DNA of 64,000 bases from a virus: positions 1 through 64,000 of the IMG/VR virus record IMGVR_UViG_3300037567_000704. One strand, given 5' to 3'. Both the position numbers and the translations under genes were made by a program. Shown one piece after another: positions 29,382-50,311 of this stretch; position 1 is the stretch's first letter; every line of letters begins with the position of its first letter. The notes below the pieces were generated by a model that searched no databases, was not told the origin of the DNA, and saw only the letters and a list, made by a program, of their open reading frames with translations.

Positions 29382-29726
29382 TCATCTCACCTCGATTAGG
29401 ATTTGAATCTTCATCTCATTCCCACTGTTCTTAGTCACTGGCGCTATCACATGTCGAGACATTGGTGTGAAACTGTCGCTTCCCTTGAATTGCACGTATA
29501 CCTCTTTCAACGTCTCTGAGAATGAATGCTCTGTCCCAAGCGTTCCTTCGACCAATAATGTGGAATCATCTATCACAGTCACAGTTGGGGTGATTGTAAT
29601 AGCCGGACGACCAGCAGCACCATCGCTGGATGTTGAAGGAGTCCCATCGAATCCCAACGTCATCTCATTGATGTTAGATGCTATGGTGTCCAACACCAAT
29701 CTTCTCATGTGGTCACTTGCTGGCAT
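29382..29726 (-). CDS. Small baseplate or fibre-connector protein
   Basis: 114 residues; start and stop overlap (TGATG) couple it to the hub-like gene before it. An N-terminal helix (RRLVLDTIASNINEMTLG) leads to a beta-sandwich (AITITPTVTVIDDSTLLVEGTL, TLKEVYVQFKG) and a C-terminal strand. Its size and position match small baseplate proteins that join fibres to the hub, but no family was recognised. Confidence 0.5.
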   Translation of the reverse strand: MPASDHMRRLVLDTIASNINEMTLGFDGTPSTSSDGAAGRPAITITPTVTVIDDSTLLVEGTLGTEHSFSETLKEVYVQFKGSDSFTPMSRHVIAPVTKNSGNEMKIQILIEVR

Positions 29727-31159
29727 CAGTCTTCACCCTTGAAAGTCAATGTATGCAATTTGTTCACTCCTATCACATTGTTGAGGCTTCGCCCGATGGT
29801 TGCACTACCCGCAGCGGGGCCGATGAGGAACTTCGTATTTTCTACTTCTACCGCTCTTACAGAGATGATAGGAATGATGTTTATCTGAATGAAGGAGAAT
29901 AATGAGAGATTTTCCTCTGTGGTTTGGGAAATCTTATCTGGGTTATGAGGTGCTGAAGAGGCAATCATTCCCTCACTTACCCCATGCAACACTCCCTCTA
30001 TACCTTTCTGCACAGTTAAGAAATTGAAGTCTGACATTCTGGTAGTAAGGGTGTGTCTTGATTCGGTGATTAGTCTTTTCACCCCTTTATACAGAGCCAC
30101 TTTACCCGGTCTCATGTCCCAAGTATCTGGATGACCACTGCTCCTCAATGAACCTCTGTGTATAGCGTTGGATTTCAGAATCTGTCTTGCTACTCTCTTA
30201 GCATCTGCTTTGCTCTTCACAGTCGCATCGAAAATATTCGTGACGTTCTCTTGTATATCCAAATCAAATCTTCCTTGTTGTCTCTCGGAATCACTTACAG
30301 TTACGCTTGCTACTTCATTCAAGGATATGGAATTTCCCACAACTGTTATCTTGTTCTCGGTGTTGTCTATCGGATTGGTCTCCTCGTTACCAGTTCTCCC
30401 GAACTCTGAGATTTCTCTACTTGCTTCTGTGAAAACTAACGGTGTGTATAACAGATTAGCGAACCTGTCGAAGTATACGATATTAGAATCGTGTCTCGAT
30501 GTGAACTTCAATGCGGATATCAACGTCACCCCGTAAAAATCCTGAGCGAGGAACTTAGTCGTATGCTTTCTTCTTCCTTCATTGGTATTGCTTGGGCTTC
30601 TCAAACTACCGAGAGACACGGATGTCAGAGTCCCAACCATATCAGTTCCCAATTTCATAGCGAGGTCACTCGTTCTGAAACCCACATCTATAGGGTCACC
30701 TAGATGGACAGCGTCTCCCTTGAGCCCTATGTCATTCAAAGACCTCCCCTTCATGTTTCTGAGATTCATTTTCACTCCATCTGTGGAAGCCTCTATAGAA
30801 CTGAATGTGAGCCTCTTGGTGATATCAGCATCGTTGTAGAGTAGTATTGGCTTCTTAGATGTAGGAGAAAGTGCAGAGTTTTGGTAAAAGGGTGCAATCT
30901 TGCTTGTGTAACCGTGCCCCCTCTTGTGAGTCAATTGAACGAAACCGTCTCCTTCTACCAATTCATAAGCATTTTCACTGAAGACATTGTAAGTGGCGTT
31001 ATTCCTATTTTCTATGGTGACTTTCTGCTTGTTAGAAGTCTGACTTGAAACAAGACCATGATGCACTGCGTTGTCTACAAAAACTGGTTGTCTCGCTTCA
31101 GTCATGATTTCAACTACATCGAAATCAAACTTTCCAGCGCTCGCCATCAATTTAGTCAT
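29726..31159 (-). CDS. Putative baseplate hub / gpD-like protein
   Basis: 477 residues. The sequence contains ISALKFTSRHDSNIVYFDRFANLLYTP, then KSKADAKRVARQILKSNAIHRGSLRSSGHPDTWDMRPGKVALYKG. A basic helix (A.R.A..IL) followed by a short beta strand, GxPxxxPG and a final strand is the pattern of the gp27/gpD-type tail hub fold. It lies between the giant protein and the fibres, where a hub gene is expected. The last 80 residues (IIPIISVRAVEVENTKFLIG) form a separate beta segment. A moderate call based on pattern and order. Confidence 0.5.
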   Translation of the reverse strand: MTKLMASAGKFDFDVVEIMTEARQPVFVDNAVHHGLVSSQTSNKQKVTIENRNNATYNVFSENAYELVEGDGFVQLTHKRGHGYTSKIAPFYQNSALSPTSKKPILLYNDADITKRLTFSSIEASTDGVKMNLRNMKGRSLNDIGLKGDAVHLGDPIDVGFRTSDLAMKLGTDMVGTLTSVSLGSLRSPSNTNEGRRKHTTKFLAQDFYGVTLISALKFTSRHDSNIVYFDRFANLLYTPLVFTEASREISEFGRTGNEETNPIDNTENKITVVGNSISLNEVASVTVSDSERQQGRFDLDIQENVTNIFDATVKSKADAKRVARQILKSNAIHRGSLRSSGHPDTWDMRPGKVALYKGVKRLITESRHTLTTRMSDFNFLTVQKGIEGVLHGVSEGMIASSAPHNPDKISQTTEENLSLFSFIQINIIPIISVRAVEVENTKFLIGPAAGSATIGRSLNNVIGVNKLHTLTFKGED

Positions 31160-34100
31160 GCGGCATCACCACTATGGTCGCTAACATTGAACGTCACATC
31201 ACCTTTGTGCCCCTTCGGATGTAACGCTTGACTAAATCTAGGCTTGACAGAAAAGTCCATTCTTTTGATTTCACTCTCGTTTTCTGCTATTTGTCTTCTT
31301 CGAGGTGCATCTGAACGATAGTGTTGTAGTGTGTTTTCACTCATCACCAAACGTGTTACTGGACTCGTAATAGTCGTCTTGTCAAACTTGTCTACTCCCA
31401 CTACTTCTGTTCCCAGAATCTTAGGTCCTTGACTGGTAGGGGTGATGGTGGAAGAACCTGAAGCCATGTAGAAGACTGGGACATATGGAGCATTAGTGTT
31501 TGGAGCCGCCGAACTTGGAAAATTATTGGAGGCGACTCTCGGAGTAGTCACTTCGTAGGTGTATATACCGTATTTTCCTCCTGCAGATGCTCTGAAATAA
31601 TCAGTAGGGGTGTTAGTTCCTTTATTGACTGTGTTGTTGTATTGGGGAGTTCCTGAAATAGTAGCGGGTAGGGTTCTGAACATCTCTACATGATTCTTAT
31701 CTAGTAATCTCACAGGTCTGAGTAGCCATTTGATGCTCTTATCACTCTGATTATTTTTGATTGTTGTTCTATTGAAATCAACATTTTGATATGGGTTAGT
31801 GGTTTTCACTGCTCCCGAAAGCCCGTCATAACCCCAACCTGTATCATCGAAAGGATTCCCATAGTTCCTAGTTTCCAAAATATAGTTACCTCCCAAAGGG
31901 CTCATGTTGCTCGTATGACTGAATCTAAGAGCAGAGCGAGGTTGCACACCGAAGGCCAAACTGGTCAAGTCGAGATGCGCTAGAGTCTGTGACCCTCCTA
32001 GTAAGCACCCATGCAAGATGGTTCTCTGTCCTACATTGCGGTCAGTATGCAGGCTGTGGGCCTCTGTATTGATTGCGATATGGTCCTTCTCCACACTTTC
32101 CACATTATGTCCGTCTATGCCTATTCTTGGACTGTTTCGGCTTACTGCGTCCTTGTGGGGACTTGTCCCGATTATCTCCTCAACCCTATCGCTCACCACA
32201 GCATCTGGTTTCAGTAACCCATGTTCGGAGATTTCGAGCCTCGCACTGATTCCTCTTGGTATTTCATCGGCCTGTAACACATCGTTACGGGGGCGTAACA
32301 GCCCTGTTACGGCTGGTGGCTCTGCCGTGTTACTGCTCAAAACTAACCCTGTAGTGTGTATTGGTTCAGAAAGTTCCGTCAGAATATCTTCATTGAATTG
32401 AATTGGATATCTGACTCCTCTACCGTTGCCCATGTCTCCTATCCTCATGGAATGAGTCGGCGCAAAAACATCCACCATAGTGTTGGTATCAGTGTTATTT
32501 ACAGCGTTTGACCTACCGCATAGCAATGGTGGTTCGTTGTCCAGATTTCCAGAAGAGTCAATGACTGGGGCGCTGATGCCGGTGAGAACCTCGTAGATTG
32601 GTTTACCATAATTCCAGATTCTAGCGTGAGGAGTTCTATTGTTGGCTCTATCGTATTCGTAGACATCACCACAGTCCCATGCTGGTCTGATGCCAAATCC
32701 ACGTACTGGAGCACGCCTTACGTCCTCTCCACGCTCATTGCCCCACCAATCCACCAAATAATACTGCGCGGCCTCAGCGAGGCTGTAAATGCCCTTTCCT
32801 GCGACCTCCCCCCACCAGTCCTTATTCATGTTAGAATTAGAGAGTAGAGTTCTGATAGGCGTTCCGAACGGTCTGGTCATTCTTCTGCCTTCGCTATACT
32901 TCACTTGCCATTCTGGTTTGTCGCAACCTAACATGCCTGCGAAATTAGTCTGTCTCTCCATTACACCGACATAGGTAGTAGTGTAAGAAACGTTAGACTG
33001 CGAGCCAGTATCTCCACCAGCATAAGCCCATGTCATGGCCTCATGTTGAACGAGTGGGCCAGATGCGTAATCAACAGTGAAATTATTATCAGAAGAAGCA
33101 TCGTCCTCCAGTTTTCCTCTACCTGTGAGAATACCCCAAGTCGGTTTGTTACAGGCTTGACGCACAGCGATACGCCACCCATACGGATATTTTCTGTTAT
33201 CACCACTATAACCTGAGCCCATAGCCGTGAAAGTGATTCCAGAAGAGCCCTGAGCATAGTTTTCATCCAACCCGTCTTCATCATTCCAGAAGTAGAAATC
33301 GTTGGAAGCATACTTTCTGGGTATATTCCATGATATGCTTGCTTGTGTGTATAGGTCAAGCCTACTTGTGAGAGGCCCACCACGACTACCACATGGCCAG
33401 AACTTGCTGAACATTATTTTCTGACTATCGAAATTAGTTCCACCCTGTGCTTCGTACCCAGAAAATGCATGAATTTCAGCACCAGTGGATGCAACACCAT
33501 CTTTATCTTCTGGATTAGGACTCTTCATTCGGAAATCAAATGGACCTAAACTCATTGCATATACTGAATCCTGATAATGTATGGTCTCAAAATGTTCAGG
33601 CATGCAATTATACGGTTTCTTATCTACTGCTCTATCAGATGTTAGATTACCCCAAGTACGAGAACTGTCGGAATAGAAAGTATGTGGCCTACCTAGATTG
33701 TAATGCCAGAGACATAAGTATGCATCTGGAATATGTAATGCAGTTGTATCTCTAGTCCCCTTCTCCACTTGTGGAAGAATCATGGTGAAAATGCTATTAT
33801 TCGTATCAGTCATCACTTTCCCTGCTGATAGGTTGTTGTATGGATGTGTCAGTCTGAGCGTTGTTTCGACCGAAGCGGCGAGTAATGCTGTTAGTTTAGT
33901 CCAGAAAGAGCCAGAGACTGTAGTTGATGTAAACTTCTTAGGTTCATTGATAGTTCCTATTTGCAATCCATACCTTCTGGTGTATGGTAGAGTCTGTATG
34001 TTACCATCTGCGTCGGTAAATTCTAACAATTGACCATATTGTGGGGTTTCTGGAAATGCACTTGCATCATCTACTGTGATTTCTCTAGTCCCACTACTTT

Positions 34101-37100
34101 CTGCATGTATAGTTTTGACTATACACTTAGGGTTTATCGAGGTATTCTGCAATACATGTGAGTATATCGCAGGGTATTTCGAAGGATATCCAGCAATTGT
34201 TAATTGCACTCCTATACTTCCGAAGGTACTTCTCTTCATCATGTAGTAGTTATCCAGACGATGGTGTGTTAAATGCTTGAAATTATTAGATGAACCATCA
34301 TCTGGGGCTATTTTGTGAACTATGCTCCACCAAGGAATATTGAGAGTGTAGCCCGGTGTGGAATTACTGAACAGTTTTGGATGATAAGGAAGTGTTCTTC
34401 TGGTGAAAGCAGGTGATTCAGTGCCTTCTACCCCAAACGGGTTGTAGAGTAACAAAGGAGGTATGTTGGTGAACTGTTCACCGTGGTCAGGATTGATATC
34501 CAGCATAACCTCATTGATGAAAATCTCACAACCTCTTACATCTGCTTGAGTTGTTTGAGCCAATAAAAGGGCAACTGCGCCTGTGCCGCTTATTCCAGAA
34601 GTCGCTGGTTTGCGTCCTATGACTGTATTCACCTGTTGTCCTGTTAGAGTATAACTGCCACCATCAACGTGATATCCGATTAATTGGTTGGAAAAAGTAT
34701 TCGGCTGTATGACGATTTGATACGCTCCTACTCTTGCTGGGTCTGGGAAAAAATCGTCCAATGTATAATTTCCAGAGGCTTCCAAAACTACGGTATGGCC
34801 TCCTTGTTGGTTGATTTTTCCAGCAACACCAGTAGATGCTAAAACCCCGTAACCATCGTTTTTCAGTTTACTTTCGAACATCAAAGTGAATGCTCCACCA
34901 TGAATATCGCTTGGACCACTAGGCGCAGCATTCAACGAACCGAATGCAATTTCTGCATCTTGTAGATGAAAATAATTAGATACTCCTGACGCTATATCAC
35001 TTTTTTCTGTGGTCGCTGTCGTATTTTCTTTGAGTAGATTCCTATCTACAGAGCCTCGCAGTGATGCATTTTCTGCAAGATGACTACGATACAGTCCTTG
35101 GTATACAGGGTGAGCCCAATGACCCGGAAGCATGGGCATGGTCGGTGTGACGAAATGATGCCCCATTCTCGGTAGAGGCATTGGTGTAATCACCGCTTTG
35201 TTGTAGATGTTGTAAGCGAGAGTCTCTGTATTGATGGTCCCGTAGGTCCCTGTCGAATACTGGGTTTTTGCCATGTCTGGGGAATTTCCACTCACTTCAG
35301 CGTGGTCTCGTAAACGACGTGCTGCGAAGAAGCGATTGCTTCCTGCGGGGATGTAATAGGAAGGAACCACTTTCAGATTCGTAATAGTTTGAGCAGCCAT
35401 GAAGTCTGTAAAATCAACGTCACCCACAACACCAGTGAATGTTTGTCCACTTATTCCGGTATACGAAGCCACTACACTTTCTTCAGTAGATGAATTGTAG
35501 ATTCTGATAAAACGCCTACCAGTCGTTGTATGAGCCATTTCCTTGCTACCGAAATCAGCAGCAAAAATATCCGTATTAGTGGTCGGCATTAAAACTGCAG
35601 CATTGACTGTCAAAGTTGTCCCACTGAAAATACTCGCAGTTAAAATTCTTGTCTCTACACCATTTTCGTGTGAAAAAACTGTCGGATAACGGTGAGTGTG
35701 ACTGTGCCCCATTTTCGTAACGTGGAAGTAGAGAGTCCTGTCATGCTGTTCGTAACTGGTTCTCAATGGAGCGTTGTCTGTGGTCTCTTTCCAACCAGCA
35801 GTAGTGCTGTCCTTGGTCAATGGGTCTATGTGTTCCCAGTTGTGGTCTTCGTATGTCGGTCCCTTTCTCGGACCAGAGACGCTGTTGTCGAACAAATTAC
35901 CCAGATAATCCTCATTCAAATCAGCATGCATCATTCCTCCTGAACCCATAGTTTCGTTCTGATAACCTTGCAGTCTATCGAATCCTGACCTCACGATGAT
36001 GTTTCCGGGTATGCTGTTCGGGTCTGGTAGTTGTATTTTCAGATTGGGGGCTATACCACTGTTTGCAAGAGACGGGGACATTCCTTTGGCCTCTCTGTCA
36101 GTTACTTTGCTGAAACCTCGAATGATGGTCCCCAGTGGGCTACCGCCCTCGATTATGTGCTCTTGCCCGGAATCATCCTTGACGGTGATTTCCTCGAACT
36201 GCATTTCCTCGTTCGGAATATTCAACACGTTTCCTATCAACAGGGGATTTTTGCTCGCTAACTGAGGATGGGCTATTTCCTGTGCTTGTAGAATTGGTAG
36301 CATAGCACTGTTTGTAGTCTCGAAAGAAAATCTCACATTCCCGAAAATCTTCTCTCCAGTAGTATACGCTACGCCGTTTTTCACCCTCGTCATCCAAGGG
36401 ACAGCGCCAAGCCCTCGTGCGTTAATTGCAGGAAGACTGAGATTTCCGCCATCCATTCTCTTCCATACTATTTGTTCTACCGTGAAGTTTTTCGCAGGCG
36501 CTCTATCATAGAGGGCGTATGCATTCACATCTCCTGCCCAAAAATCATTGACTCTCAAAGTAGAACCGTTATCATATTCTGTCGTATAATCCACATCTTC
36601 ATAGAAATCATCTGCAACATTGCGCGTCACTCCTGAGTCTTCCAAGAAGAAAGAGCCTATGGAGTGGTCAATATCGAAGAGCATATCTCCTGTTTTGTGC
36701 AATCCGGGTATGGCGTTTTCCACTGTGGTGTTGGTGGCGGCAGCCCCATGCAGGAAGTATTCGGCATTGAATGGCGCAGCATCTGCTCCATGCGTAGCGG
36801 AAAACGTGATTGAGGGAACAGTAGGAGTCTTATGCACCAGCGCTTCTACATTAGGCCCAGCATTCGCAGGTGCGATGAAACGGTCTTGACCGTGGAACCT
36901 CTCGTCCCAACGTGTCGTGCCAGCATAATGTATGGGATTTGAAACACTGTTAGCAGCCGCCCCTTTGACTTGTAACCAGTCTCCTAGAGCAGTTATGCCA
37001 TCTCTGTCATATTTTGCTATGAGAGCGCTCTCGCACTCGTAACTCACGACGAGGAATGCTCGACCCAACACCCCTTGTGGATGAGTCATGAAATCCGGTA

Positions 37101-40100
37101 GTGTGGTATCAACGTAAATCGGGGGTTTTGAGTGGAGTGTGTCTGGCCCATCATTATCAGATGTTTTTCTCGCTCTGGTGTAACCTGTATCATGGGCCAA
37201 TGTGAATCCTGTAGTATTGGCGTAAGGGACATTCAGGAATCCCATGAGATTAACGCCAAGATTGTCTATTGGTGGTAGACTCTCAGGACTTCTGGGCATA
37301 GGAGCCACCACTGGTAGATTACCAAATGCAGTCATAGCAGAACTGGCACTGCCATAAGGAGAGAATCCTAACATCGGATGCCAAGCGCCTAGACCCCCAG
37401 CATACCCTTCTGTGCCCACTTTGAGGCTGTTCAAGTAGGAATAGCGCTCTCCGGCCCATCCTGCTGCTCCTATCGGTCTGGTGCGGTCTATGGCATCAAC
37501 GATTCCAGAGAAGTGAGTCTGGCACATATGGTCGCGTGTTGCCGCTACTTCGTTGTTGTAACGATGAACTCCTGCTTTCGACCAGACATGTAACACATCA
37601 CTAGCGCTTATGGCTGGGAAGTCACTGATAGTTCCATCAGTATCATACCAAGTGGTTCTGTCTTCAAACTTCATCTGCCCGCTTATCCTGTTAGGAGCAA
37701 TGTAGAACCTCACTTTGAGAGTAGAGTCGTTATTCACCTCTCTCGCATAGTAAGGAGCAAAGCCGCCAGCAGCAGTCCTCAGCCAGCCGCATGCCGGTAT
37801 CTGTTCCAAACGGTCTCTATTGACTGTATTGTTAGCAGTATAGCCGCTCATTTCCACAGTGATGTGATTGTTGCTTGGCGTTGTATTTGAATTGGTGATA
37901 TTGGTGCATTCGACTTCTACCCAACCATATCGGTCCTGTCGCATGGAATTACCCATAGACGGCATGTGTGTCCCTCCCATCGCTTTGAGCGCCCCTGCTC
38001 CGGGATAGGTGTTGATTGCCATACCCATCACTGTGGCGAGTTCCTCTCCATTCTGGCATCTAGTCGCATCAACGATGATGTATTCCATATCCACATCAGC
38101 GCCTACCAAATCTCCTTCGGCTGCTGCATAACCCAATACCTTCGTGGTTATTGGACCAGCGACTCTGTATGCGCTTGAGTGCAACTGTGTTGCTGCTCCC
38201 CATTTTTGCAGGATTGTATTGCTCTTGGGATGAGGCGGGTTGAATGTGATTTGGTTGTCCATCCAGTGTCCTCCGGGATGGTAGCCTCCATCCATGTGGA
38301 AGACCATATCAGCAGCCATTGCCACACCATGCCCTATCACTGAGCAGTGCCTCATTGGATGGGCCCTGTCTAGTTCGTCGTTTATTCCGGATGTGGCTGT
38401 GTCTGCGTTGAAATGAGTCCCATACATCCTTCCTGACTCTGGTCCTTGTTTGAGTATAGCCACATTGGGCTTTCCTTGTGGTGGCTCCCAGTTGATAGTG
38501 GAACGCCAGTGGAATCTGCCTCTCGCCAATTGATATGTCGAGGACTCAGGCATGTAGAAGCCATCGTAGTTCTGTATGTGATTCGGTAGTTTAACCGTCC
38601 CAGACACTGGGACTTTGGACCAAGTGTTACCTATCGTCACCACTGCTCCGGGATGAGGCTGCTCTGTGTTAGCACCACTCATGTTAGCGCTATCTGCTAT
38701 CTCTTGGGTGAACGGGAATGCCTGTCCGGGACCGAAGACGATGTATGTGGTCTTGTTCTCCACATTGCTCGTGCCACTGCTGTTCTTGTGGTCCTCGTAA
38801 CGCGCTGTGGGATGAGCGAATCTCAGTATGAGTGGGCTTGGTTTCTGAACTCTCACTCTGAGCGATGTCGTGGAGTGATTGTATGGGGAGGTATTACCGC
38901 TGTTGGGATGCCCGGTGTTTATCGTAGTCCCTGTCTTTGAGAGGTCCGGGGATAGGATGCTATCTTTGTTGAAGAACGGCGGTAGTATGCTGCCACGATG
39001 CTGATTGCAGAATGCAGCGCCGGGGAAGAAAGCGAACATCGCATTGCAGTCCAACAAAGCGAAACTGGTGGATATCTCGTTGGCATTCTGTATTCCTGAG
39101 GTCCCTGTGGGTCCGTTCGCATAAGGATGGGTATAGAATGTGGAGTAGTCATTCATAGTCCCGTCGTTTATATCGAGGGTCACACCGCTGAATCCACCAC
39201 CGAAGAATAGTGGAACGCTGTGGTCCACACTGCCCTTCCCTCCTTTGAAATGAACTATGGGTTCTGAGAAAACACTACCGAGAGAACGAAGCCCGTCGAA
39301 CTCCATTGTTCTCTTGATGTCTCCGAAATGTGAGAATGCAAGTGTGTCGTCTATATCAGCAGTAGGCCAATCCTCGGACCTGCCTTCCTCATACCATACC
39401 AATGTAGTCTTGTTAGTCACAAAAGAAGCAGTGCCGGGATTCAAACCCTCGACTACGATGAATTGCTTATCAGCCATGTAGATTGTCTTCTTCTCACCGA
39501 AGGATGGAACTCTGTCTGTGTTTCCCTCCTCCCCTGCCGGTATCAGGAAGTTCCACATCTCATGAGCCAAAGGGAACTGTTTGGTCGTTCCATCCCAATT
39601 ATCACTATTTCCAGCAGAGTTGTCGTAAACAACAATCGGGTTGTTTATCATCGGTAGGATGTGGTCACCACTGTGTCTGGTGAAACTCTCTCCTTTGAGG
39701 TTCCTTCTCCATTCATTGGTGTCCACCGGGTTGTTGAAGGAGTCCACGAGTAGTGGTGTTGCTGTATTGGTGTTCGGTCCTCTGCCTCTTGTTATGATTT
39801 GTAAGACTGTGTCGGGTATGTAACCACAAGCCATTCTCTTCTGATTTTTGATATCGGTATTTGAAAGGGCTCTAGATGTCCCGAAAGCCCAACCAGAACC
39901 AGTATTATCAGTCTTCTCAACCTCTCCTAACTCTATGTGTGCTGCTTGTATTCCCATGTCCCGATGAAACGAGGCATAGAAGAAGTCAGAAAGGGGTTTG
40001 ACTGGTTTCGTTGTGTCATAACTTCTGATTATAATTGCGTCTGCAGCAACTCCCCATTCTCCAAACGTCCTACCATCTGTCGCATACATCTCTCTGCAAT

Positions 40101-43100
40101 CGAATGCTAAACCCTTTGGATTGTTGATATCTGAATCATCAGCGTTGATTGCTGCGGTTGAGATTACTGCAAGCAACTCGTCAGTGACTATAGTGGTCCA
40201 GTTCAATAATGGTGAAATCAAATATGAATTAACAAATGTGTCTCCATTCTGTGAACTCTTTATCCCGAAGAAAGTATGTGGTCCACTTTTGTTGTTCTGT
40301 GTTCTATGAGTATAGGAGAAGGTCATGCCCCCCTTTCCATCTTGAGAATCCGTGATTTGGATGACTCCATTCTTCAGAGGAAAGCCGAGATAACCGAGTA
40401 TGTCATGATGTGCACAAGTGTCTCCGTTTTGAAACGGTCTCTCTAAACTCACAGTAAGACTTGTAGCATTAGCGCTCTTGCTTATAGTGCAATTCACCGC
40501 TATGCTAGGCGCACTAACCCCTCTCCACCTGTTGCCACAATAGGCTTGGTCTGTAATAGAAACAGCAGAGCCAGACCCTCCAGAAATGTCCAATCTACCA
40601 GAAGCGTCTCCACTACCATACATGTGTTTGCCCATAGTGAATCCACCAAGACCCACGTCTCTGTCGTCAATGAAAACACACACTTCGTTGGATATTGTGT
40701 CTGGCAGGGTGGTGTTCTCGTTTGCGAAGCCCTCACCCATAGTCCTGTAGATAAATCTCAGACCGTGTTTTCCTCCTCTGTGGTCCTCGAACTGCAGTCC
40801 ATACAAAGAGGAGTTTCCCACTACATCCGACTTCAAGTCAGAGGAATTGGTATGACTGGTATAAGAGACATCAGTGAGACTGCCGTATCTGCCTCTGAAC
40901 TTTTGAGAGCCCTTCTTGCCGAATCCCCACACACCTGCGTCTGGAGCCCAACCGGGAATGCCAGATGCTACAAGTCCACCGAAGTTCACTCTCCCTATCG
41001 CTCGCTTACCTACTCTCAGACCCTCTACCAATACTGATGATGAGCCCTCAGTCTCGAAAGACTCGGTATTGACTGTATTGAACTGTTTACCACTACCCAA
41101 ATGGTGAGATGTTCCCCTCAACACAGAGGCATCTGCATCTGTTACATTATCATCGAAGGTCACGAAGTCGGTATTGCTCACTACATCTTCACCAGAGTCC
41201 TCTGGGGTGACGTATTGTGTGAGTGTGGTGACAGGAGCGAAAGGTCTACCATGCTTGTTGAGAGGCATGGGAGCGGGATGCATGTTCTCTCCCTCCTTCT
41301 CCTCAGGCAATGCCCAGAAGTTCCTCCAACGTCCTCCATGTCCAATGAGGAACTCAGGCTGATAGACTGATTGTCCCTTGCTGTTATCCAGCCAAACGCA
41401 GAAGTTCCTACCACTCGCTCCCGGCACAGTGCTATGTATCACCACAGTGAATCCGATATTTCCGTTCTTGTCTTGCACCTCTCTGCCTATGTGTGCTCTG
41501 ACATAGCCCATGTGAGTCCCTCGGTCACGAGTGGAGAACGCCTTGTCACTGTCCCACCAAGCAGTCGGGTCATGAGCACTGCCTGTAGTGTCCTTGTCCA
41601 CTACTATCTGTCCCTTAGGCGCTCCTGCTTGGTTGATTTGACGAACAATCTCCAATGCAGCAGACTTTACAGATACCACTCCGTCCTTCTGAGCCACAGA
41701 GCCACAGTCTACCGTTAATCTCCTCACGAAGTCCATGTCCGTCCACTGTTTGAGGTGCTGCAAACGAGATTCCGAATGTGATGTAAGGTCGAGTGCATTT
41801 GCTCTTTTTCCTTTAAGGCAAAGGAAAGCAGGTATGACGCGAGTTCCGTCTGGGGTATCGAAGAACGTGGATGGGTCTCTGAGAGTATGAGAAATGCTAG
41901 TATCTGTCCTCAACTTGACTAGAGAGGTAGTAAAACTATCTGATACAGAGCGTTTCGTTCTTGAGAAACTGTGGTCTGGATTCGCTATGAGTGGATTGAC
42001 TGTATTGTCGTTGGTTCTGAGTAAGACGCTGTCTCCTTCTGAGAAGGTCTGGTAAGCACCGTATATCGAATACCCATCATGGACGTGATGCCCATGAGCC
42101 TTTCCATATATGCCCGGAGACAAAGAGCCACTTGCATAGTTGAACATGCTGTTCGGCAGAGTCCCGCTATTGAGTGAAGTAAGTAATCGAGTGGATAGGC
42201 TGTTCGCTATATCATGAGCATAGGCACTCTCGATGAACTTGGATTGCTGAACACTGCGTATGTATGGGTTCTCGCTTGGGAAGCCGTTAGCAACGTCTAT
42301 CTGAGTAGTAAGCCAAGAAGGTCCTCCGCCATTTAGTGTAGCGGCGTATTCCATCGTATCTGAGATTACATTGCTTGTACCAATCACCATCTTCTTAGGC
42401 CATCCAATCTTGACAGCATCAGCGCTAGTCTGAACCTGCATATGCAGGTCTTGGAATGCCACGAACTCCCTGTCATGGGCGACATCATAGAGAAGAACAC
42501 GAGCATGTCCATCCTCTGAGAGATAGGGGTCCACATAAGCGACCTTGGGCGCTTGACTCGCTGTCAGACCGAGAACCTTGTAATTCTCCTCTACAGTCTT
42601 GTTCACATGCTGGGCGTAATTCTGTGCAGTTTCAAGACAGGTGTCTCCAATTAGGAAGTTTTCAAGCGGTATGCTCTCTCTCGGTCTTGTGGCTAATGCT
42701 CCCTTACCACCGTTGAACCCCGTCCACACTAATGCCTCATTGAGAACCCCTCTGCTCTTAGAGAAGAGTCCCTCTATGGAATGTGGGTTGTTCATACTCA
42801 TGTTGGCCCATATCGTATCGCCACTACGCAGTCCACCCGGAGCATATGGATAATTCCAAGTTTTGTTCAGGATTGCCTCATCATCATCTACCTGCGGCAT
42901 TTCAATACGAAGAGGCTTGCTACTGGTATCGTTTTGGCAACTCCCAGTCAGAGTCACTGTGTAAGTTCCGTCATCATAGTCCTCTATATGAGACACTGTT
43001 CCGATATGTAGAATCTTACTCGCAGTTTCTTCTGAGTATATCGAATCCCCCTCTCTGAGGTTCAGACCCGATATTGTGTTCGAACCGGCCAATCTACCAT

Positions 43101-46100
43101 TCCCATTGGTAATAGTGCAGGTTGAGACGAGAGTTGATGCTGAGATAGTCCAAGCATCATCTCCTGCTGGTTTGAAAGTCTTGGCGATAATCTCATTGTT
43201 AGCAGCCTTGGTTGTATTGCTTGGAGGAGCACCACTTACGTTTCCGAATATGCTCCTCGTCTTCTTAGTGAGCGTTATCTCATTACCGGGCAGATTGGTA
43301 ACCCAAGAAGGCTTACTGTTACCAGTATCATAAAACACGAACATTAGAGTGTTGGCAGATACAACCTCATTAGAGGTGTTCTTGCTGATTCTTCCATAGT
43401 AATGCATGCTGCTCGGAGACAGAGAAGCACTTGCATCTGCTTGATAGAGATACTCTCCAGAACTGAAGGTATATGTATTCATATCATCATAATCTAAATC
43501 TGGGAACAGAGCCATATCCTCATCACTCATAGTTACAATTAATTCATGAATGAACTTAGAACTAGCGCCATCCAATACTGACCACTCTACGTTAGTCACT
43601 ACGCCTGTGGCTCTACCACTCATCACTTTAGGCGCGTGAGGATTGCTTTCCGGTCCAGCCTTGAACTCCACCGCGCTGACATACTGTCTGATACCGTAAT
43701 CCACATTGCCTCCCTGTGTCTTCGCGCTTGCACTGTCATGGTAGTATTCACCTCTGTTCTCGAAATCAGAGGACGGGGTTATGCTGTCAGAGCCTATGGG
43801 TATGAGTCCCTCTGATAGAGAAGGGCCACCCGGTGAAACGGCTGCTCCCACTACAGCGCTTTCTACAAAACCGCTTGAGAAACCCCAATTGCTATCATTG
43901 GGTATTTTGAGATACCGTGTGCCCACCAATGGTATGTCTTCGTAATATGCCCATTCCCCATTAGCGAGGAACACCTTACGGTAGTTTCTCACGTTACTGC
44001 CGACGTTCTGGTATGATGCATCGCTCAGACTTACACTGTGGAACAACTCGCTATTGTCTGGGTGAAGGTGATAGAATGAGGCAACTAACTCGAACTTGTC
44101 AATACGGGTTATGGGCGTGAACTTCTTCTCCGCCTTGTTCATCGTGAAGGAAGACCTCGCCTCTCTATCTGCAGGCTCTACTCCCTTGTGTCTCCTACCT
44201 ACAGGGCTGGGGTTGTATGTGTGTGCAGTCTGAGTAGCATCAACATGAATCTTGAAGGAGTTGTCTGGTCCGGGTAGAATACCCTTCTCAGGCTCATCGA
44301 AGAATTGGTTAGCAAAGAATGGAATCTCCACTATCGCTCTCGTACTCGCGTATTGTGTTCCCAACTGGTAATCATGAGAGACATCGTTCATAGTCTGGAA
44401 CATCCTGTCATTGACAGTGGTCCCATCCTCAGCAAGCGATGACTCATCGAAGAACTCGTCATTGAAGAACGACGTTGAGATATACATGTCGCTACCATTA
44501 GAGACTGCGCCTAATGCTGTCTCTGTTGCCTCCAACCATTGAAAGAAATTTTGGAACTCGGTTCCGTTCGCTAACAAGAACTTACCATCGCCAAAAGCGC
44601 TAGCAGCAGTGAATACGAACTCGTCTCCGTCCTTGGAATCGTAAAGAGCATTAGAACCGTCCTCCAAGTAGACTCTGCCCTTCATCGGGAATCCGTAAGT
44701 CCCCCAAGACGCAAGGTCGTCTGCTTCGTTGTTGAGTGGTTTGACGTAGATTTTACCACCATTAGTCGTAGTTGTGATTCGGTAACCAAGTGTAGCACAG
44801 TTCCTCCTCGTGGAGAAGGGCAAGCGTGCTAACGGACTGGGGTCAAACGTCGGTTTGGTGTCCATAGCCCCTTGTCCGGGACCACCGAGAGTAACCGTGA
44901 CGACAGGCGCATTGGGTTCTATCTCCTTGACTATGTGAGAGTCCGGGCTGCCTTTACCTCTCACGCTCACGTTCCTGTTGGCTGTGGATTCTGACAGACC
45001 CACGCAATGGACAGAGGTGAAGTTCTCACCTTCCTTGTCTGACTCTTTGACAGAACGGACTCTGGCTCTCGACATGAGATACATGAGTGATACAAAGTTC
45101 GCCTCCTCACCATCACTAACGGAAGAACGTATCTTTGCGAGTTGATTCACTCTTCTTCTGTCAGAAGGCTGTATGAACAAACGCATTCCTTCCTTGTTAC
45201 CACTGATGGAACCATTGTCAATAATATCGAACATCTCGTGAATATGTGTATTGGAAGAGGTGACCCCCTTGTCGAATTCACCGTTGGAAGGAGAATCGAG
45301 GACCACGCTAGGCTCCCTTCTGTGAAACTCCCCCTTGTCCGTCAAAGTCTGATTTTTGTCTCCATGGAATGTATCAATCACTATACGATGAAATACCGAA
45401 TCATGACTTGTGCTCGGTGAATGGGAAGCGGTTATGATTTGTGGAGTAGTATTGGGATTTATGTTTGCAAGAACCCCTACATACAATTCCTCCCCATTGA
45501 TTAGGGCAACTGCTCGATTCTCGTCCAATGTGATATCATTTCCTATTGATGCTATTATACCCACGAAAACCAGACTGGAGGTGTAGATAGTATCATCCAC
45601 TGCGATATTGACGTTACCAGTTGTATTACCTGTTGTGGTTATCGTATTGCCGCCACCAGCATTCTGATTACCGCTAACAGTAATACCTGTAGGAGTCAGT
45701 GGTTTGTAGTTGATAGGAGTGAGACTCTCATCCAACTCGTCATCAGACTCATAGCCTTCACTCGTATCTCCAACAAGAGAATGTGATTGTATCAGATTAC
45801 CGACTAATTGCTGACCTTCGAATCTCGCTTCTATGTAACCTCCGGGAGCATAAAGGGTAGCAGTGATAGAAGCGCTGGTCACTGCAGTTTTTATCAATTC
45901 GTATATGGTAGTGGTTCCTGTGACCACTGTGGTCCCTGCAGGAACGGTCTTTTCCACCATCAACAGGGGTTGGATAGTGCCACTCATGCTTGCGCCAGTC
46001 AAATCAATAGCGTTGTAGTAAATTTTGACGAATGGGGCTAAGTCGTAAGTAGAAAGTGCTGGAACATGTAATATGGCTACCCGACTCTCCTCACTTGGTC

Positions 46101-47952
46101 GTAAGTGATGCCTTCTGGTCTCAGCATTGATATTATCCAGATTGTCTGGAACTGGGCCTTTGAGCATGAAAGCCTTGTAATCGAAATTAACTCCACCTAT
46201 CGCCAAGAGTTCCTTGTTCTCCTTGGTGAGACCGTTGTTGAAGAGCGCCTCACATCTAGAGGAATTGACGACTTTATTGATTTCGAAAACATCTTGTTCT
46301 CTGAAGATGTCTACACGACTGTTCACTGATATCTGTTCGCCTGCTCCCGTTCTTCCTACATCGTATATGATATCAATCAAATCAGCAGACCCGTCTATTC
46401 TCTGGTCAATTATTTCCTCGTTCGCTCTTGGTAACATTCTCAGGAACTCGTGCCCATCAACGTGATTGAGTATGTGTCTGCCACTATGTCCTATCTGAAA
46501 AGAAGTATCAACCGTAGCAGGCCAGACAACAGCGAAGGGATTATCACTGTCATCAGTGGTATTAGCCATGTTGCTTGAATAAACGAAACCGTGTTGAGCG
46601 AATGGGCTCTCGTCAATGACCATCTGACCCGTCCTGTCAATTATCTGTGTGGAGAAATGAGGGTCTTGGTATGGCTTTCCTGTAGCATTGTCGATGAGCA
46701 AGTCAGCGCCTATTACTACGAAGTGATTGTCCAATCCTGTTGTTCTGGTGTGTAAGGCGCTACGAAGCCCATTGCTGGAATTGGGAAAATCAAGATGGAT
46801 GCTGGAAACTAGCATGTTTCCAGTGGTTGTGTTTATGTTATGGAGTCTGACCCTCTCTGGTGGTTTACCGTTCGGTTTGTGAGTGTCCAAGTCTATGCCC
46901 CCAGCATTGATGAGAAGATTGTATGGAGTGTGGGAAATGCTGTGCATCACCGGAGTGCCAGTTGATTGTTGGTAATCCACCACCTTGTAGTCCCCACCCG
47001 AATACTTGTGAGTCCCAGTGCTGTCCTTGGAAAAGACATAGTTACCTGATACCGTTGATAGTCCGGTCAGTTTCTTGGCCAGAGTAATAGCATCAGTTGT
47101 GGTTATTGTGATTTGAGATATGGTAACAGTAGCGCCATCCATAGTGGTGCTGTTGTTGGCAATGGCAGAGAACTTGTAGGTCCCTGAGATAGGAGCGATT
47201 GGCTCCTCGAACCTGTAAAGCAATAACGTATTCTCGTTCCTGAGTGGTGCAGACCTGTCAATAGCCTCCTCTGAAAAATCGCTACTGATATGAAGGGCCT
47301 CCATCACACCTCTGAACTTGCCTCCTTTACCTCCTACATACAGATGTGAATCGTAATTCGCTATGGTTACATTCCTGTTCAACAAGGATTTTTGAACCAT
47401 TAACACCCCATTGATGTAGAGGTCTATCGAGTTCGACCTTACAGTAGCCACAATGTGAATCAACGGCCTGTGGTCTATGTTCAAAGATGTTGCATCATCA
47501 GAAGAACCATCATACCTGTTGTAGGAATCATGGATTCCTCTGAACTCTGCTGGAGGGTATACCGTTCCCTCGTAGCCTCTGCTGGTCACTGACTTTGCTG
47601 TAGAGAGAGTCTCGACTACAGTGCCGCTGTCAGAATTGAGATAGACTTCGAATACAGCAGGTCCGGGAGTATCAACATCTCCGATTTTCAATCTGAACTG
47701 CCCTTCCTTCTCTACTACAACGCCACCACAGTCAGGAACCACCCAAGCCTCGATGCACAACTGATTGTTGAGAGCACCAGACAAATTGCCGTGACTGCCT
47801 GCTTGGTTGTCTTCTCCTAGTATGTTACCTACGCTCTTGGTCCCCTGTGTGGTTGCCTTGCCTAGTCTGCTCATTGCCCCTTGTGGGACGATTATACTGT
47901 CAGTCACCCCATCGAACATGAAAGCGTGATTGGAACGACTCATTACTGGCAT
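31156..47952 (-). CDS. Giant 5,598-residue tail protein with LamG-like domains
   Basis: A single uninterrupted 16.8-kb frame, about a quarter of the window, preceded by GAGGTGA. Residues 30-240 look like a LamG/concanavalin-type beta-sandwich (LCIEAWVVPDCGGVVVEKEGQFRLKIGD, IHIVATVRSNSIDLYINGVL, FRGVMEALHIS). A second such domain is near residues 4340-4490 (GAFTLMFESKLKNDGYGVLAST, YQIVIQPNTFSNQLIGYHVDGG). The rest is beta-rich and non-repetitive, high in His, Trp and Tyr, without obvious membrane segments. It lies between tape-measure/baseplate genes and the hub-like gene, so it is probably a tail-tip or tail-surface component that binds glycans. The viral chaperonin could help with smaller proteins, but this chain is far too large for one chaperonin cavity. 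Confidence 0.8.
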   Translation of the reverse strand: MPVMSRSNHAFMFDGVTDSIIVPQGAMSRLGKATTQGTKSVGNILGEDNQAGSHGNLSGALNNQLCIEAWVVPDCGGVVVEKEGQFRLKIGDVDTPGPAVFEVYLNSDSGTVVETLSTAKSVTSRGYEGTVYPPAEFRGIHDSYNRYDGSSDDATSLNIDHRPLIHIVATVRSNSIDLYINGVLMVQKSLLNRNVTIANYDSHLYVGGKGGKFRGVMEALHISSDFSEEAIDRSAPLRNENTLLLYRFEEPIAPISGTYKFSAIANNSTTMDGATVTISQITITTTDAITLAKKLTGLSTVSGNYVFSKDSTGTHKYSGGDYKVVDYQQSTGTPVMHSISHTPYNLLINAGGIDLDTHKPNGKPPERVRLHNINTTTGNMLVSSIHLDFPNSSNGLRSALHTRTTGLDNHFVVIGADLLIDNATGKPYQDPHFSTQIIDRTGQMVIDESPFAQHGFVYSSNMANTTDDSDNPFAVVWPATVDTSFQIGHSGRHILNHVDGHEFLRMLPRANEEIIDQRIDGSADLIDIIYDVGRTGAGEQISVNSRVDIFREQDVFEINKVVNSSRCEALFNNGLTKENKELLAIGGVNFDYKAFMLKGPVPDNLDNINAETRRHHLRPSEESRVAILHVPALSTYDLAPFVKIYYNAIDLTGASMSGTIQPLLMVEKTVPAGTTVVTGTTTIYELIKTAVTSASITATLYAPGGYIEARFEGQQLVGNLIQSHSLVGDTSEGYESDDELDESLTPINYKPLTPTGITVSGNQNAGGGNTITTTGNTTGNVNIAVDDTIYTSSLVFVGIIASIGNDITLDENRAVALINGEELYVGVLANINPNTTPQIITASHSPSTSHDSVFHRIVIDTFHGDKNQTLTDKGEFHRREPSVVLDSPSNGEFDKGVTSSNTHIHEMFDIIDNGSISGNKEGMRLFIQPSDRRRVNQLAKIRSSVSDGEEANFVSLMYLMSRARVRSVKESDKEGENFTSVHCVGLSESTANRNVSVRGKGSPDSHIVKEIEPNAPVVTVTLGGPGQGAMDTKPTFDPSPLARLPFSTRRNCATLGYRITTTTNGGKIYVKPLNNEADDLASWGTYGFPMKGRVYLEDGSNALYDSKDGDEFVFTAASAFGDGKFLLANGTEFQNFFQWLEATETALGAVSNGSDMYISTSFFNDEFFDESSLAEDGTTVNDRMFQTMNDVSHDYQLGTQYASTRAIVEIPFFANQFFDEPEKGILPGPDNSFKIHVDATQTAHTYNPSPVGRRHKGVEPADREARSSFTMNKAEKKFTPITRIDKFELVASFYHLHPDNSELFHSVSLSDASYQNVGSNVRNYRKVFLANGEWAYYEDIPLVGTRYLKIPNDSNWGFSSGFVESAVVGAAVSPGGPSLSEGLIPIGSDSITPSSDFENRGEYYHDSASAKTQGGNVDYGIRQYVSAVEFKAGPESNPHAPKVMSGRATGVVTNVEWSVLDGASSKFIHELIVTMSDEDMALFPDLDYDDMNTYTFSSGEYLYQADASASLSPSSMHYYGRISKNTSNEVVSANTLMFVFYDTGNSKPSWVTNLPGNEITLTKKTRSIFGNVSGAPPSNTTKAANNEIIAKTFKPAGDDAWTISASTLVSTCTITNGNGRLAGSNTISGLNLREGDSIYSEETASKILHIGTVSHIEDYDDGTYTVTLTGSCQNDTSSKPLRIEMPQVDDDEAILNKTWNYPYAPGGLRSGDTIWANMSMNNPHSIEGLFSKSRGVLNEALVWTGFNGGKGALATRPRESIPLENFLIGDTCLETAQNYAQHVNKTVEENYKVLGLTASQAPKVAYVDPYLSEDGHARVLLYDVAHDREFVAFQDLHMQVQTSADAVKIGWPKKMVIGTSNVISDTMEYAATLNGGGPSWLTTQIDVANGFPSENPYIRSVQQSKFIESAYAHDIANSLSTRLLTSLNSGTLPNSMFNYASGSLSPGIYGKAHGHHVHDGYSIYGAYQTFSEGDSVLLRTNDNTVNPLIANPDHSFSRTKRSVSDSFTTSLVKLRTDTSISHTLRDPSTFFDTPDGTRVIPAFLCLKGKRANALDLTSHSESRLQHLKQWTDMDFVRRLTVDCGSVAQKDGVVSVKSAALEIVRQINQAGAPKGQIVVDKDTTGSAHDPTAWWDSDKAFSTRDRGTHMGYVRAHIGREVQDKNGNIGFTVVIHSTVPGASGRNFCVWLDNSKGQSVYQPEFLIGHGGRWRNFWALPEEKEGENMHPAPMPLNKHGRPFAPVTTLTQYVTPEDSGEDVVSNTDFVTFDDNVTDADASVLRGTSHHLGSGKQFNTVNTESFETEGSSSVLVEGLRVGKRAIGRVNFGGLVASGIPGWAPDAGVWGFGKKGSQKFRGRYGSLTDVSYTSHTNSSDLKSDVVGNSSLYGLQFEDHRGGKHGLRFIYRTMGEGFANENTTLPDTISNEVCVFIDDRDVGLGGFTMGKHMYGSGDASGRLDISGGSGSAVSITDQAYCGNRWRGVSAPSIAVNCTISKSANATSLTVSLERPFQNGDTCAHHDILGYLGFPLKNGVIQITDSQDGKGGMTFSYTHRTQNNKSGPHTFFGIKSSQNGDTFVNSYLISPLLNWTTIVTDELLAVISTAAINADDSDINNPKGLAFDCREMYATDGRTFGEWGVAADAIIIRSYDTTKPVKPLSDFFYASFHRDMGIQAAHIELGEVEKTDNTGSGWAFGTSRALSNTDIKNQKRMACGYIPDTVLQIITRGRGPNTNTATPLLVDSFNNPVDTNEWRRNLKGESFTRHSGDHILPMINNPIVVYDNSAGNSDNWDGTTKQFPLAHEMWNFLIPAGEEGNTDRVPSFGEKKTIYMADKQFIVVEGLNPGTASFVTNKTTLVWYEEGRSEDWPTADIDDTLAFSHFGDIKRTMEFDGLRSLGSVFSEPIVHFKGGKGSVDHSVPLFFGGGFSGVTLDINDGTMNDYSTFYTHPYANGPTGTSGIQNANEISTSFALLDCNAMFAFFPGAAFCNQHRGSILPPFFNKDSILSPDLSKTGTTINTGHPNSGNTSPYNHSTTSLRVRVQKPSPLILRFAHPTARYEDHKNSSGTSNVENKTTYIVFGPGQAFPFTQEIADSANMSGANTEQPHPGAVVTIGNTWSKVPVSGTVKLPNHIQNYDGFYMPESSTYQLARGRFHWRSTINWEPPQGKPNVAILKQGPESGRMYGTHFNADTATSGINDELDRAHPMRHCSVIGHGVAMAADMVFHMDGGYHPGGHWMDNQITFNPPHPKSNTILQKWGAATQLHSSAYRVAGPITTKVLGYAAAEGDLVGADVDMEYIIVDATRCQNGEELATVMGMAINTYPGAGALKAMGGTHMPSMGNSMRQDRYGWVEVECTNITNSNTTPSNNHITVEMSGYTANNTVNRDRLEQIPACGWLRTAAGGFAPYYAREVNNDSTLKVRFYIAPNRISGQMKFEDRTTWYDTDGTISDFPAISASDVLHVWSKAGVHRYNNEVAATRDHMCQTHFSGIVDAIDRTRPIGAAGWAGERYSYLNSLKVGTEGYAGGLGAWHPMLGFSPYGSASSAMTAFGNLPVVAPMPRSPESLPPIDNLGVNLMGFLNVPYANTTGFTLAHDTGYTRARKTSDNDGPDTLHSKPPIYVDTTLPDFMTHPQGVLGRAFLVVSYECESALIAKYDRDGITALGDWLQVKGAAANSVSNPIHYAGTTRWDERFHGQDRFIAPANAGPNVEALVHKTPTVPSITFSATHGADAAPFNAEYFLHGAAATNTTVENAIPGLHKTGDMLFDIDHSIGSFFLEDSGVTRNVADDFYEDVDYTTEYDNGSTLRVNDFWAGDVNAYALYDRAPAKNFTVEQIVWKRMDGGNLSLPAINARGLGAVPWMTRVKNGVAYTTGEKIFGNVRFSFETTNSAMLPILQAQEIAHPQLASKNPLLIGNVLNIPNEEMQFEEITVKDDSGQEHIIEGGSPLGTIIRGFSKVTDREAKGMSPSLANSGIAPNLKIQLPDPNSIPGNIIVRSGFDRLQGYQNETMGSGGMMHADLNEDYLGNLFDNSVSGPRKGPTYEDHNWEHIDPLTKDSTTAGWKETTDNAPLRTSYEQHDRTLYFHVTKMGHSHTHRYPTVFSHENGVETRILTASIFSGTTLTVNAAVLMPTTNTDIFAADFGSKEMAHTTTGRRFIRIYNSSTEESVVASYTGISGQTFTGVVGDVDFTDFMAAQTITNLKVVPSYYIPAGSNRFFAARRLRDHAEVSGNSPDMAKTQYSTGTYGTINTETLAYNIYNKAVITPMPLPRMGHHFVTPTMPMLPGHWAHPVYQGLYRSHLAENASLRGSVDRNLLKENTTATTEKSDIASGVSNYFHLQDAEIAFGSLNAAPSGPSDIHGGAFTLMFESKLKNDGYGVLASTGVAGKINQQGGHTVVLEASGNYTLDDFFPDPARVGAYQIVIQPNTFSNQLIGYHVDGGSYTLTGQQVNTVIGRKPATSGISGTGAVALLLAQTTQADVRGCEIFINEVMLDINPDHGEQFTNIPPLLLYNPFGVEGTESPAFTRRTLPYHPKLFSNSTPGYTLNIPWWSIVHKIAPDDGSSNNFKHLTHHRLDNYYMMKRSTFGSIGVQLTIAGYPSKYPAIYSHVLQNTSINPKCIVKTIHAESSGTREITVDDASAFPETPQYGQLLEFTDADGNIQTLPYTRRYGLQIGTINEPKKFTSTTVSGSFWTKLTALLAASVETTLRLTHPYNNLSAGKVMTDTNNSIFTMILPQVEKGTRDTTALHIPDAYLCLWHYNLGRPHTFYSDSSRTWGNLTSDRAVDKKPYNCMPEHFETIHYQDSVYAMSLGPFDFRMKSPNPEDKDGVASTGAEIHAFSGYEAQGGTNFDSQKIMFSKFWPCGSRGGPLTSRLDLYTQASISWNIPRKYASNDFYFWNDEDGLDENYAQGSSGITFTAMGSGYSGDNRKYPYGWRIAVRQACNKPTWGILTGRGKLEDDASSDNNFTVDYASGPLVQHEAMTWAYAGGDTGSQSNVSYTTTYVGVMERQTNFAGMLGCDKPEWQVKYSEGRRMTRPFGTPIRTLLSNSNMNKDWWGEVAGKGIYSLAEAAQYYLVDWWGNERGEDVRRAPVRGFGIRPAWDCGDVYEYDRANNRTPHARIWNYGKPIYEVLTGISAPVIDSSGNLDNEPPLLCGRSNAVNNTDTNTMVDVFAPTHSMRIGDMGNGRGVRYPIQFNEDILTELSEPIHTTGLVLSSNTAEPPAVTGLLRPRNDVLQADEIPRGISARLEISEHGLLKPDAVVSDRVEEIIGTSPHKDAVSRNSPRIGIDGHNVESVEKDHIAINTEAHSLHTDRNVGQRTILHGCLLGGSQTLAHLDLTSLAFGVQPRSALRFSHTSNMSPLGGNYILETRNYGNPFDDTGWGYDGLSGAVKTTNPYQNVDFNRTTIKNNQSDKSIKWLLRPVRLLDKNHVEMFRTLPATISGTPQYNNTVNKGTNTPTDYFRASAGGKYGIYTYEVTTPRVASNNFPSSAAPNTNAPYVPVFYMASGSSTITPTSQGPKILGTEVVGVDKFDKTTITSPVTRLVMSENTLQHYRSDAPRRRQIAENESEIKRMDFSVKPRFSQALHPKGHKGDVTFNVSDHSGDAA

Positions 47953-47961
47953 TGCTTCACC

Positions 47962-49221
47962 TCAGATTGACCTATCTACTGGGATGAAGTTCATCACGAA
48001 ACCATAGACGTTCTCACCGGCTTCGTATGTGATATCCAGTTTCTGAACTACCCCCTTAATCCCTGCTCTGTTACCGTCTTTGGTCAGGTCTGCGCTCGCT
48101 ACGAGAGTGTTCCCTGCACTAGACTTATCCGTAGGACTTTTACCCCAACCAGTAGGCATGATGAAGTTACGAGCGACATAGGTCTTGCCGTCTGACTGTA
48201 TGGTGGAATTGTATGGAATCTGTATACCTATGATGTAATCGCTACCCATTCCTGTGCCTTCTAACATCATACCAACTCCAGTAGCCGCTATTCCTCCAGT
48301 CATTCCTATGCCTACTACTCCTACACCAGTGCTCGCAAGTGCAACAGTGGCTACTCCACCAGTAAGAGCCATGAGGCCACCAGTAACAATCTTACCAGCG
48401 CCAGTCCTCTTCATATTGTTCATAAGACCATACAAATCCATGGCCTTGTCGCCAGCGGATTTCTTTACCACGGTTCTCCCTCCCACGAAATCAGAAGTGT
48501 ATGGGGCGCTGAAACCAGCGCCCAAATACTTCCAATCCGGGGTCACGTTGTTACCTGCTTTCCCAGCAACGTCTTGTGATATCTTCACAGCGCCCGCAAC
48601 TTGCTTTATCGTTGAATCAATAGCAGTAGCGGTGAATACAGCGGCCAACGTCGGTTCATTATTAATCAGACTGATGAAGCCATCGCGCAAGACTGTCGCA
48701 GTTATACTACTACTATCTGGATTGATACCCATCACATACGACCCATTCGTCGTATTGGTGACTGTCCCGCTTGTCAGTTTTTTGAAGGATATCGTAAACT
48801 TAGTCCCATTTGAGGCTGCGAGACGAAGGATAGTGAGACTGTATGTATCACCACTACTATCGTAAGTATTCTGAGTATTGAATAGATTTGCGAGATTATT
48901 TCTCGTTATATTTGTAGGACCATCTATGAATGAAATAGTCGCATTAGCCCAGCCGACAGGATAAACAGACGTGAAATCAACTATGCTAGAAGCAAGACTG
49001 TCTGTTCCCACTATCTCCTTATCATCAGTGAAGACTCCATGGACGATTACAATGGCCTTCTGCATGTTCATATCCAAACCGAACCTCTGTCCACCAGAGA
49101 ACGGGACTGCCATGCCGCCAGCCTTCCTGCTGGTAGTGAGAGTTATGCTTGTGGCATCCAATTCGATTAGACCGCCATTTTCTTGAACCAGACGAATCGG
49201 AACACCATTAGCCGCCACCAT
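47962..49221 (-). CDS. Tail/baseplate protein with hydrophobic Gly-rich segment
   Basis: 419 residues. The N-terminal half is beta-rich (IRLVQENGGLIELDATSITLTTSR, QKAIVIVHGVFTDD), similar in position to distal-tail proteins that follow the tape measure. Around residues 275-320 is a long hydrophobic Gly/Ala/Val stretch (GGLMALTGGVATVALAS, VGVVGIGMTGGIAATGVGMML) that could form two membrane-spanning helices. The C-terminus returns to beta structure. A membrane-active segment next to the tape measure could serve in DNA entry through the host membrane. The start overlaps the tape-measure stop (TAATG). Confidence 0.6.
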   Translation of the reverse strand: MVAANGVPIRLVQENGGLIELDATSITLTTSRKAGGMAVPFSGGQRFGLDMNMQKAIVIVHGVFTDDKEIVGTDSLASSIVDFTSVYPVGWANATISFIDGPTNITRNNLANLFNTQNTYDSSGDTYSLTILRLAASNGTKFTISFKKLTSGTVTNTTNGSYVMGINPDSSSITATVLRDGFISLINNEPTLAAVFTATAIDSTIKQVAGAVKISQDVAGKAGNNVTPDWKYLGAGFSAPYTSDFVGGRTVVKKSAGDKAMDLYGLMNNMKRTGAGKIVTGGLMALTGGVATVALASTGVGVVGIGMTGGIAATGVGMMLEGTGMGSDYIIGIQIPYNSTIQSDGKTYVARNFIMPTGWGKSPTDKSSAGNTLVASADLTKDGNRAGIKGVVQKLDITYEAGENVYGFVMNFIPVDRSI

Positions 49222-50030: not shown

Positions 50031-50311
50031 CAGAAGTCCTCCTGTTCTAAGAACGAGTAATCGAAAGTGATAATCTCATTACTATCAGTGCTCTCAGCGA
50101 ATTTCTGACGAGCGACTTCCTTCTCTTGCTCTTCCTCTACAGCCAATGCCCAAACGAGCGATTGCGTGAAAATCTCCTCACTCATCTGATACACTTCCGT
50201 CAATGAAACACCGTAGTGTTTCGCTACCATATAGGCAAACAGTTCTAGTTGCAGCGAGATGTCTTCAGGGGATTCTATTGTTTTCCTCTGAAGAAACTGC
50301 TGCACCTTCAA
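50030..50311 (-). CDS. Tail assembly chaperone, downstream (T) part of a G-GT pair
   Basis: 93 codons, helical and acidic (ISLQLELFAYMVAKHYGVSLTEVYQM, EEEQEKEVARQKF). The only in-frame start is a TTG overlapping the preceding stop, but the frame is also open back through GTT TAC CAA AGC to a run of seven G at 50329-50335. A -1 slip there fuses it to the protein encoded at 50308-50676, as in the lambda G-GT chaperones that wrap the tape measure. It lies just before the tape-measure gene, as expected. Confidence 0.82.
   Translation of the reverse strand: MKVQQFLQRKTIESPEDISLQLELFAYMVAKHYGVSLTEVYQMSEEIFTQSLVWALAVEEEQEKEVARQKFAESTDSNEIITFDYSFLEQEDF

Follow-up and report, generated by a model that had tools for sequence, protein, structure and literature searches.

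Magroviruses, the viruses of Poseidoniales, have been described as carrying PolB and replication genes opposite their structural genes (PMC12999244, PMC10768690), and reportedly rank with the most abundant viruses of the ocean (PMC10160649); MGII virus clade 1 typically carries an archaeal-type chaperonin (PMC5332604). The window considered here, which is the whole 64,000-nucleotide stretch that we analysed (positions 1 to 64,000 of IMG/VR record IMGVR_UViG_3300037567_000704, a linear virus contig of 86,731 bp), carries PolB, a clamp loader, and a thermosome-type chaperonin (Cpn60_TCP1, E 9e-126) on its plus strand, and capsid protein, protease, portal, and terminase genes on its minus strand. 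Magrovirales traits are present in the form of PolB and replication genes opposite the structural module, a druskavirus-related HK97 capsid protein, and the chaperonin, and we assign the window to a putative magrovirus-type archaeal tailed virus because its gene content matches the published descriptions. A search of one genome per species of GTDB gave no host links. Two genes of the head region are referred to below:

57706-58848, minus strand: HK97-type major capsid protein (phrog_24667, E 1e-52; 32% identity to HVTV-1).
58867-60279, minus strand: maturation protease gene of the structural module.

We note in passing that the same head-gene region encodes an 1185-aa protein with a GTG start (60309-63866, minus strand), which weakly matches a DNA ligase domain; in HVTV-1 a comparable position is occupied by a large 'zeta toxin' gene.

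The tail genes, in order of transcription, are the following, with a 114-aa gene between the 477-aa and 941-aa genes and poorly conserved fibre or spike genes after the last:

51278-53521, minus strand: probable homologue of the major tail protein, 747 aa (HVTV-1 gp128 matched by profile, 94.6%; function read from its position).
50308-50676, minus strand: tail assembly chaperone-like gene (weak PHROG match; weak profile match to HVTV-1 gp129).
49221-50030, minus strand: short tape-measure-like protein, 269 aa (matches to many PHROG tape-measure families, best E 2e-11).
47962-49221, minus strand: conserved tail gene 5' of the giant gene, 419 aa (conserved synteny; Dit-like in position, a tentative identity).
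31156-47952, minus strand: giant tail protein gene, 5598 aa, about 611 kDa, pI 5.6 (ORF and translation, homologues, dN/dS).
29726-31159, minus strand: conserved tail gene, 477 aa (possible baseplate hub; weak PHROG tail or baseplate matches in relatives).
26555-29380, minus strand: tail fibre-like protein downstream of the giant gene, 941 aa (conserved synteny; a putative fibre).

A preliminary description of this DNA had proposed that 31156-47952 is a single uninterrupted 16.8-kb gene for a 5,598-residue tail protein, occupying about a quarter of the window. The open reading frame list and translation confirm the frame, with 5,598 codons between an ATG start and one terminal stop; it is the largest gene in the record, of which it takes up 19% (26% of the window). 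GGTGA lies just 5' of the start, and the start itself is kept among relatives (consensus MxxIGRSNHAFFFDGVSDS). Both the length of the open frame, far above chance, and purifying selection in every 400-codon window (dN/dS about 0.1; for the relatives L014 and L015, dN 0.059 and dS 0.50) argue that the ORF is real. The assignment to the tail is likewise supported: the gene stands between the tape-measure and chaperone genes and further tail genes, two genes after the tape-measure-like gene, in an operon whose upstream part is collinear with that of HVTV-1, and its stop overlaps the start of the next tail gene as ATGA. On the basis of this operon position, the giant protein is very probably a tail component.

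The order of the tail genes is kept across relatives, with occasional insertions between the giant gene and the 477-aa gene; one contig carries an HMG-CoA lyase-like gene there (L018:28053-28904). Against PHROGs, the 419-aa protein of the window is without a match, and one weak match was found among 11 members of its family. Homologues of the tape-measure-like protein range from 190 to 573 aa, which together with the 269 aa found here suggests short tails of variable length. Farther downstream, the distal 780- and 1483-aa genes show little conservation among relatives. The 1483-aa product (17873-22324, minus strand) is Gly-rich (17% Gly), with PHROG matches to tail-spike and virion-structural families in many stretches; no relative of it was found in the syntenic loci, and no other tail gene of the window is as lineage-specific. 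It is likely a host-range gene, and is as good a candidate for that role as the giant. A 51-bp tandem repeat lies at 20366-20482, within the coordinates of this gene, and short repeats of a length divisible by three (6, 12, or 24 bases) occur in or near coding genes at 4231-4287, 50927-51007, and 56837-56888.

To place the length of the giant gene in context, we compared it with its homologues. A first IMG/VR scan yielded 31 loci holding relatives, every complete one being a single ORF, and wider scans by conserved segments gave 293, 321, and 247 stretches encoding relatives (overlapping sets, the best 80 of each being listed); some version of the gene is carried by hundreds of related viral contigs. 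Among the matches listed, the gene is complete as one ORF on 57 other IMG/VR contigs (18 + 16 + 23, a manual tally of the locus list in which no contig appears twice), and parts of it are present on many others. The complete homologues are 5,098 to about 6,140 aa long, from loci of 37-59% G+C, and identity to the window protein falls from 99.7% in the nearest relative to about 70%, then 51-58%, and 42%. The preliminary description had also thought this share of a genome unusual for one tail protein; such a size is the rule inside this virus group rather than an exception. Nor do the homologues consist of several separate genes. Only four contigs among the many examined have frame breaks inside the gene, each at a different site (L094/L210 near residue 3,895, L165 near 2,342, L325 between about 650 and 1,350, and L329 near 3,030-3,290); at such unrelated positions, these look like indel errors or sporadic mutations rather than a split-gene lineage, and no lineage with stable splitting was seen among the contigs examined. 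Loci fetched by the 477-aa gene have a long open frame upstream wherever the sequence suffices, except for the truncated L110, which we rejected as a giant-less relative given its short contig and the unrelated gene at that spot. One relative has a 591-aa insertion at giant residue 5105 (L032:25181-26953), which is Asn/Ser/Thr-rich and without a Pfam match.

Four regions of the chain stand out by domain search or by predicted structure:

47248-47952, minus strand: N-terminal LamG (concanavalin A-like) domain, residues about 1-235 (Pfam Laminin_G_3).
39676-41028, minus strand: conserved domain of unknown fold, residues about 2309-2759 (AlphaFold2 pLDDT about 66-93).
34498-34935, minus strand: candidate second LamG-like region, residues about 4340-4485 (conserved; partly confident beta-rich model).
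33766-34188, minus strand: small beta-rich domain, residues about 4589-4729 (AlphaFold2 pLDDT mostly 70-87; beta-barrel matches non-significant only).

The first reading of the sequence had recognised two LamG-like parts in an otherwise non-repetitive, His/Trp/Tyr-rich protein of unknown fold. The N-terminal part stands (E 2e-6; score 28.3 bits, cut-off 27.6; a Pfam match in 12 of 14 members) and makes up about 4% of the chain, whereas the second has neither a Pfam match nor a profile match to the N-terminal LamG. Besides Laminin_G_3, the giant gave no Pfam match, and no catalytic domain was found with Pfam or PHROGs; it has no PHROG match, whether to tail fibre, spike, hub, or tape-measure families. 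Searches of the PDB by sequence or profile and by fold returned nothing at E<=0.001 (weak fold matches to the norovirus P-domain and to a reductase barrel were discounted), and a translated search of 50,697 phage records gave no match. Domain-wise structure prediction on two segments was partly successful: the approximately 450 residues at 2309-2759 adopt a confident AlphaFold2 fold with no PDB counterpart at that threshold, but most of both segments is poorly folded (mean pLDDT 59 for residues 1640-2790 and 47 for 3660-4850). The chain is non-repetitive, since profile comparison of 351 segment pairs gave a single weak internal match (81%), and its enrichment in His, Trp, and Tyr is modest and due mainly to His (8.1% vs 5.4% in the structural proteins nearby). 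HxH metal-binding motifs of the kind present in long tail fibres are not enriched (6 vs 5.7 expected).

The backbone of the giant is conserved while short loops within it are hypervariable, which is a new observation. Over 34.8 kb, the closest contig, IMGVR_UViG_3300037572_000408, departs from the window in one block only:

37165-37264, minus strand: allele-replacement block of 100 bp with 51 differences (residues 3564-3593).

When 15 near pairs are compared, the pair above among them, hotspots of difference fall near residues 1290-1307, 1532-1595, 1644-1663, 2771-2799, 3349-3373, 3575-3605, and 4894-4905. One hotspot is common to 8 of the 15 pairs, against a mean maximum of 3.9 under random shifts (0 of 1000 reached 8); the shift test addresses shared positions rather than positive selection, and loops under relaxed constraint would score alike. 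The variable loops could indeed reflect relaxed constraint only. It is possible that the 100-bp block arose by chimeric assembly; a chimera, however, would need identical flanks in both variants, and would thereby itself imply two alleles in one population. A diversity-generating retroelement target was considered and rejected, as the 86.7-kb record, which may be incomplete, holds no RVT_1 and no template repeat; nor does it hold a donor or second copy of either loop allele.

Taken together, the LamG domain in 12 of 14 members, the recurrent loop hotspots, and the 30-residue loop swap between otherwise identical contigs point to a tail-tip or baseplate adhesin, with a lectin-like domain and variable loops that bind the archaeal surface, a reading to which we assign a probability of roughly 0.5. 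Under this reading, the giant would be one structural chain of ~611 kDa that sits at the tip or baseplate of the magrovirus tail, anchored beside the tail tube by its Dit-like and hub-like neighbours. The lectin-like LamG domain at its N-terminus and its other modules, for the most part beta-rich, would form a conserved scaffold displaying the short hypervariable loops toward the archaeal surface, and the protein would probably act as the main host-attachment body. We infer from sequence its presence in the virion, its location at the tail tip, glycan binding, and the role of the loops in host range; LamG is present in many proteins and is in itself no proof of lectin function. A tape measure corresponds to about 0.15 nm of tail length per residue, so that one of 269 aa would imply a tail of only some 40 nm, of which several ~600-kDa copies of the giant would make up a large part. 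A bolder extension, which we regard as improbable, is that a single-chain ~600-kDa tail-tip organ has replaced several baseplate and fibre proteins family-wide, its receptor-facing loops being renewed by short allele replacements without a retroelement.

The giant could also be a scaffold at the tail tip that stands in for several smaller baseplate proteins and leaves receptor binding to the variable fibre or spike genes downstream. Its strong conservation, set against the poorly conserved distal 780- and 1483-aa genes, is what would be expected if host range resided in the latter; the LamG domain and the shared hypervariable loops, allele swap included, suggest surface contact instead, and we consider this alternative unlikely, if still a serious one. 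Extreme length is also suggestive of a polyprotein, made as one chain and later cut into several tail proteins, and the structural module does include a maturation protease gene, though proteases of this type usually process head proteins. Conservation extends over the full chain, however, and no lineage was seen in which the gene is stably split, which renders a polyprotein quite improbable.

An internal protein ejected with the DNA, like the giant virion RNA polymerases or DarB-type proteins, has very long precedents, such as the 3,398-aa virion RNA polymerase of phage DEV (PMC10925440). Yet the giant lies among tail rather than head genes, combines LamG with beta-rich modules, and yielded no catalytic domain in the searches above, so that we give ejection very little credence. 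A very long tail protein near chaperone genes naturally recalls a tape measure; we rejected this role, whose chances are slight indeed, because the family matches sit on 49221-50030 and none on the giant, and because it is the homologues of that short protein that vary in length, while the giant is steady at about 5,100-6,140 aa. Finally, the source is metagenomic only, and an assembly fusion of several genes could in principle produce such a frame; the complete single ORFs in 57 separate, independently assembled contigs among the matches listed, down to about 40% identity, led us to reject fusion as having a practically negligible probability.

To our knowledge, no magrovirus has been cultured. 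The adhesin reading concerns a conserved, uncharacterised building block of these common viruses that probably takes part in attachment to the cell: its gene is kept by essentially every relative seen, most of its length is without a known fold, and its defined variable loops offer a handle for linking viruses to hosts. Among the open-literature papers covered by our search, we found no description of the giant gene, and a prior mention elsewhere is possible. For four magrovirus groups, Xu et al. (2023) counted Laminin_G_3 among the auxiliary metabolic genes (PMC10160649). Our data, which come from the window virus and its relatives, call this interpretation into question; at least here, Laminin_G_3 is a domain of a tail protein, and the reported auxiliary metabolic gene may often be the tip of a giant tail protein.

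Among known systems, HVTV-1 and other Druskaviridae share the order of capsid protein, tail protein, chaperone, and tape measure, with profile matches for several genes, but lack the giant gene between tape measure and baseplate genes; segments of the giant show no similarity to the tail proteins of HVTV-1 and vir519 that were tested. Very long single chains also occur in other tailed viruses, as in the crAss-like giant transcription proteins and N4-like virion RNA polymerases (PMC7886860 and PMC10925440), but these are RNA polymerases, a domain not found in the giant with Pfam or PHROGs. Likeness to LamG or concanavalin A-like proteins (Laminin_G_3) is confined to the N-terminus, the remainder being without a match. 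A direct counterpart is UniProt A0A1B1IU10, an unnamed viral protein (part 2 in BFVD) that is 57% identical over giant residues 1640-2790 and clearly of the same family, which is therefore already present, unnamed, in public databases.
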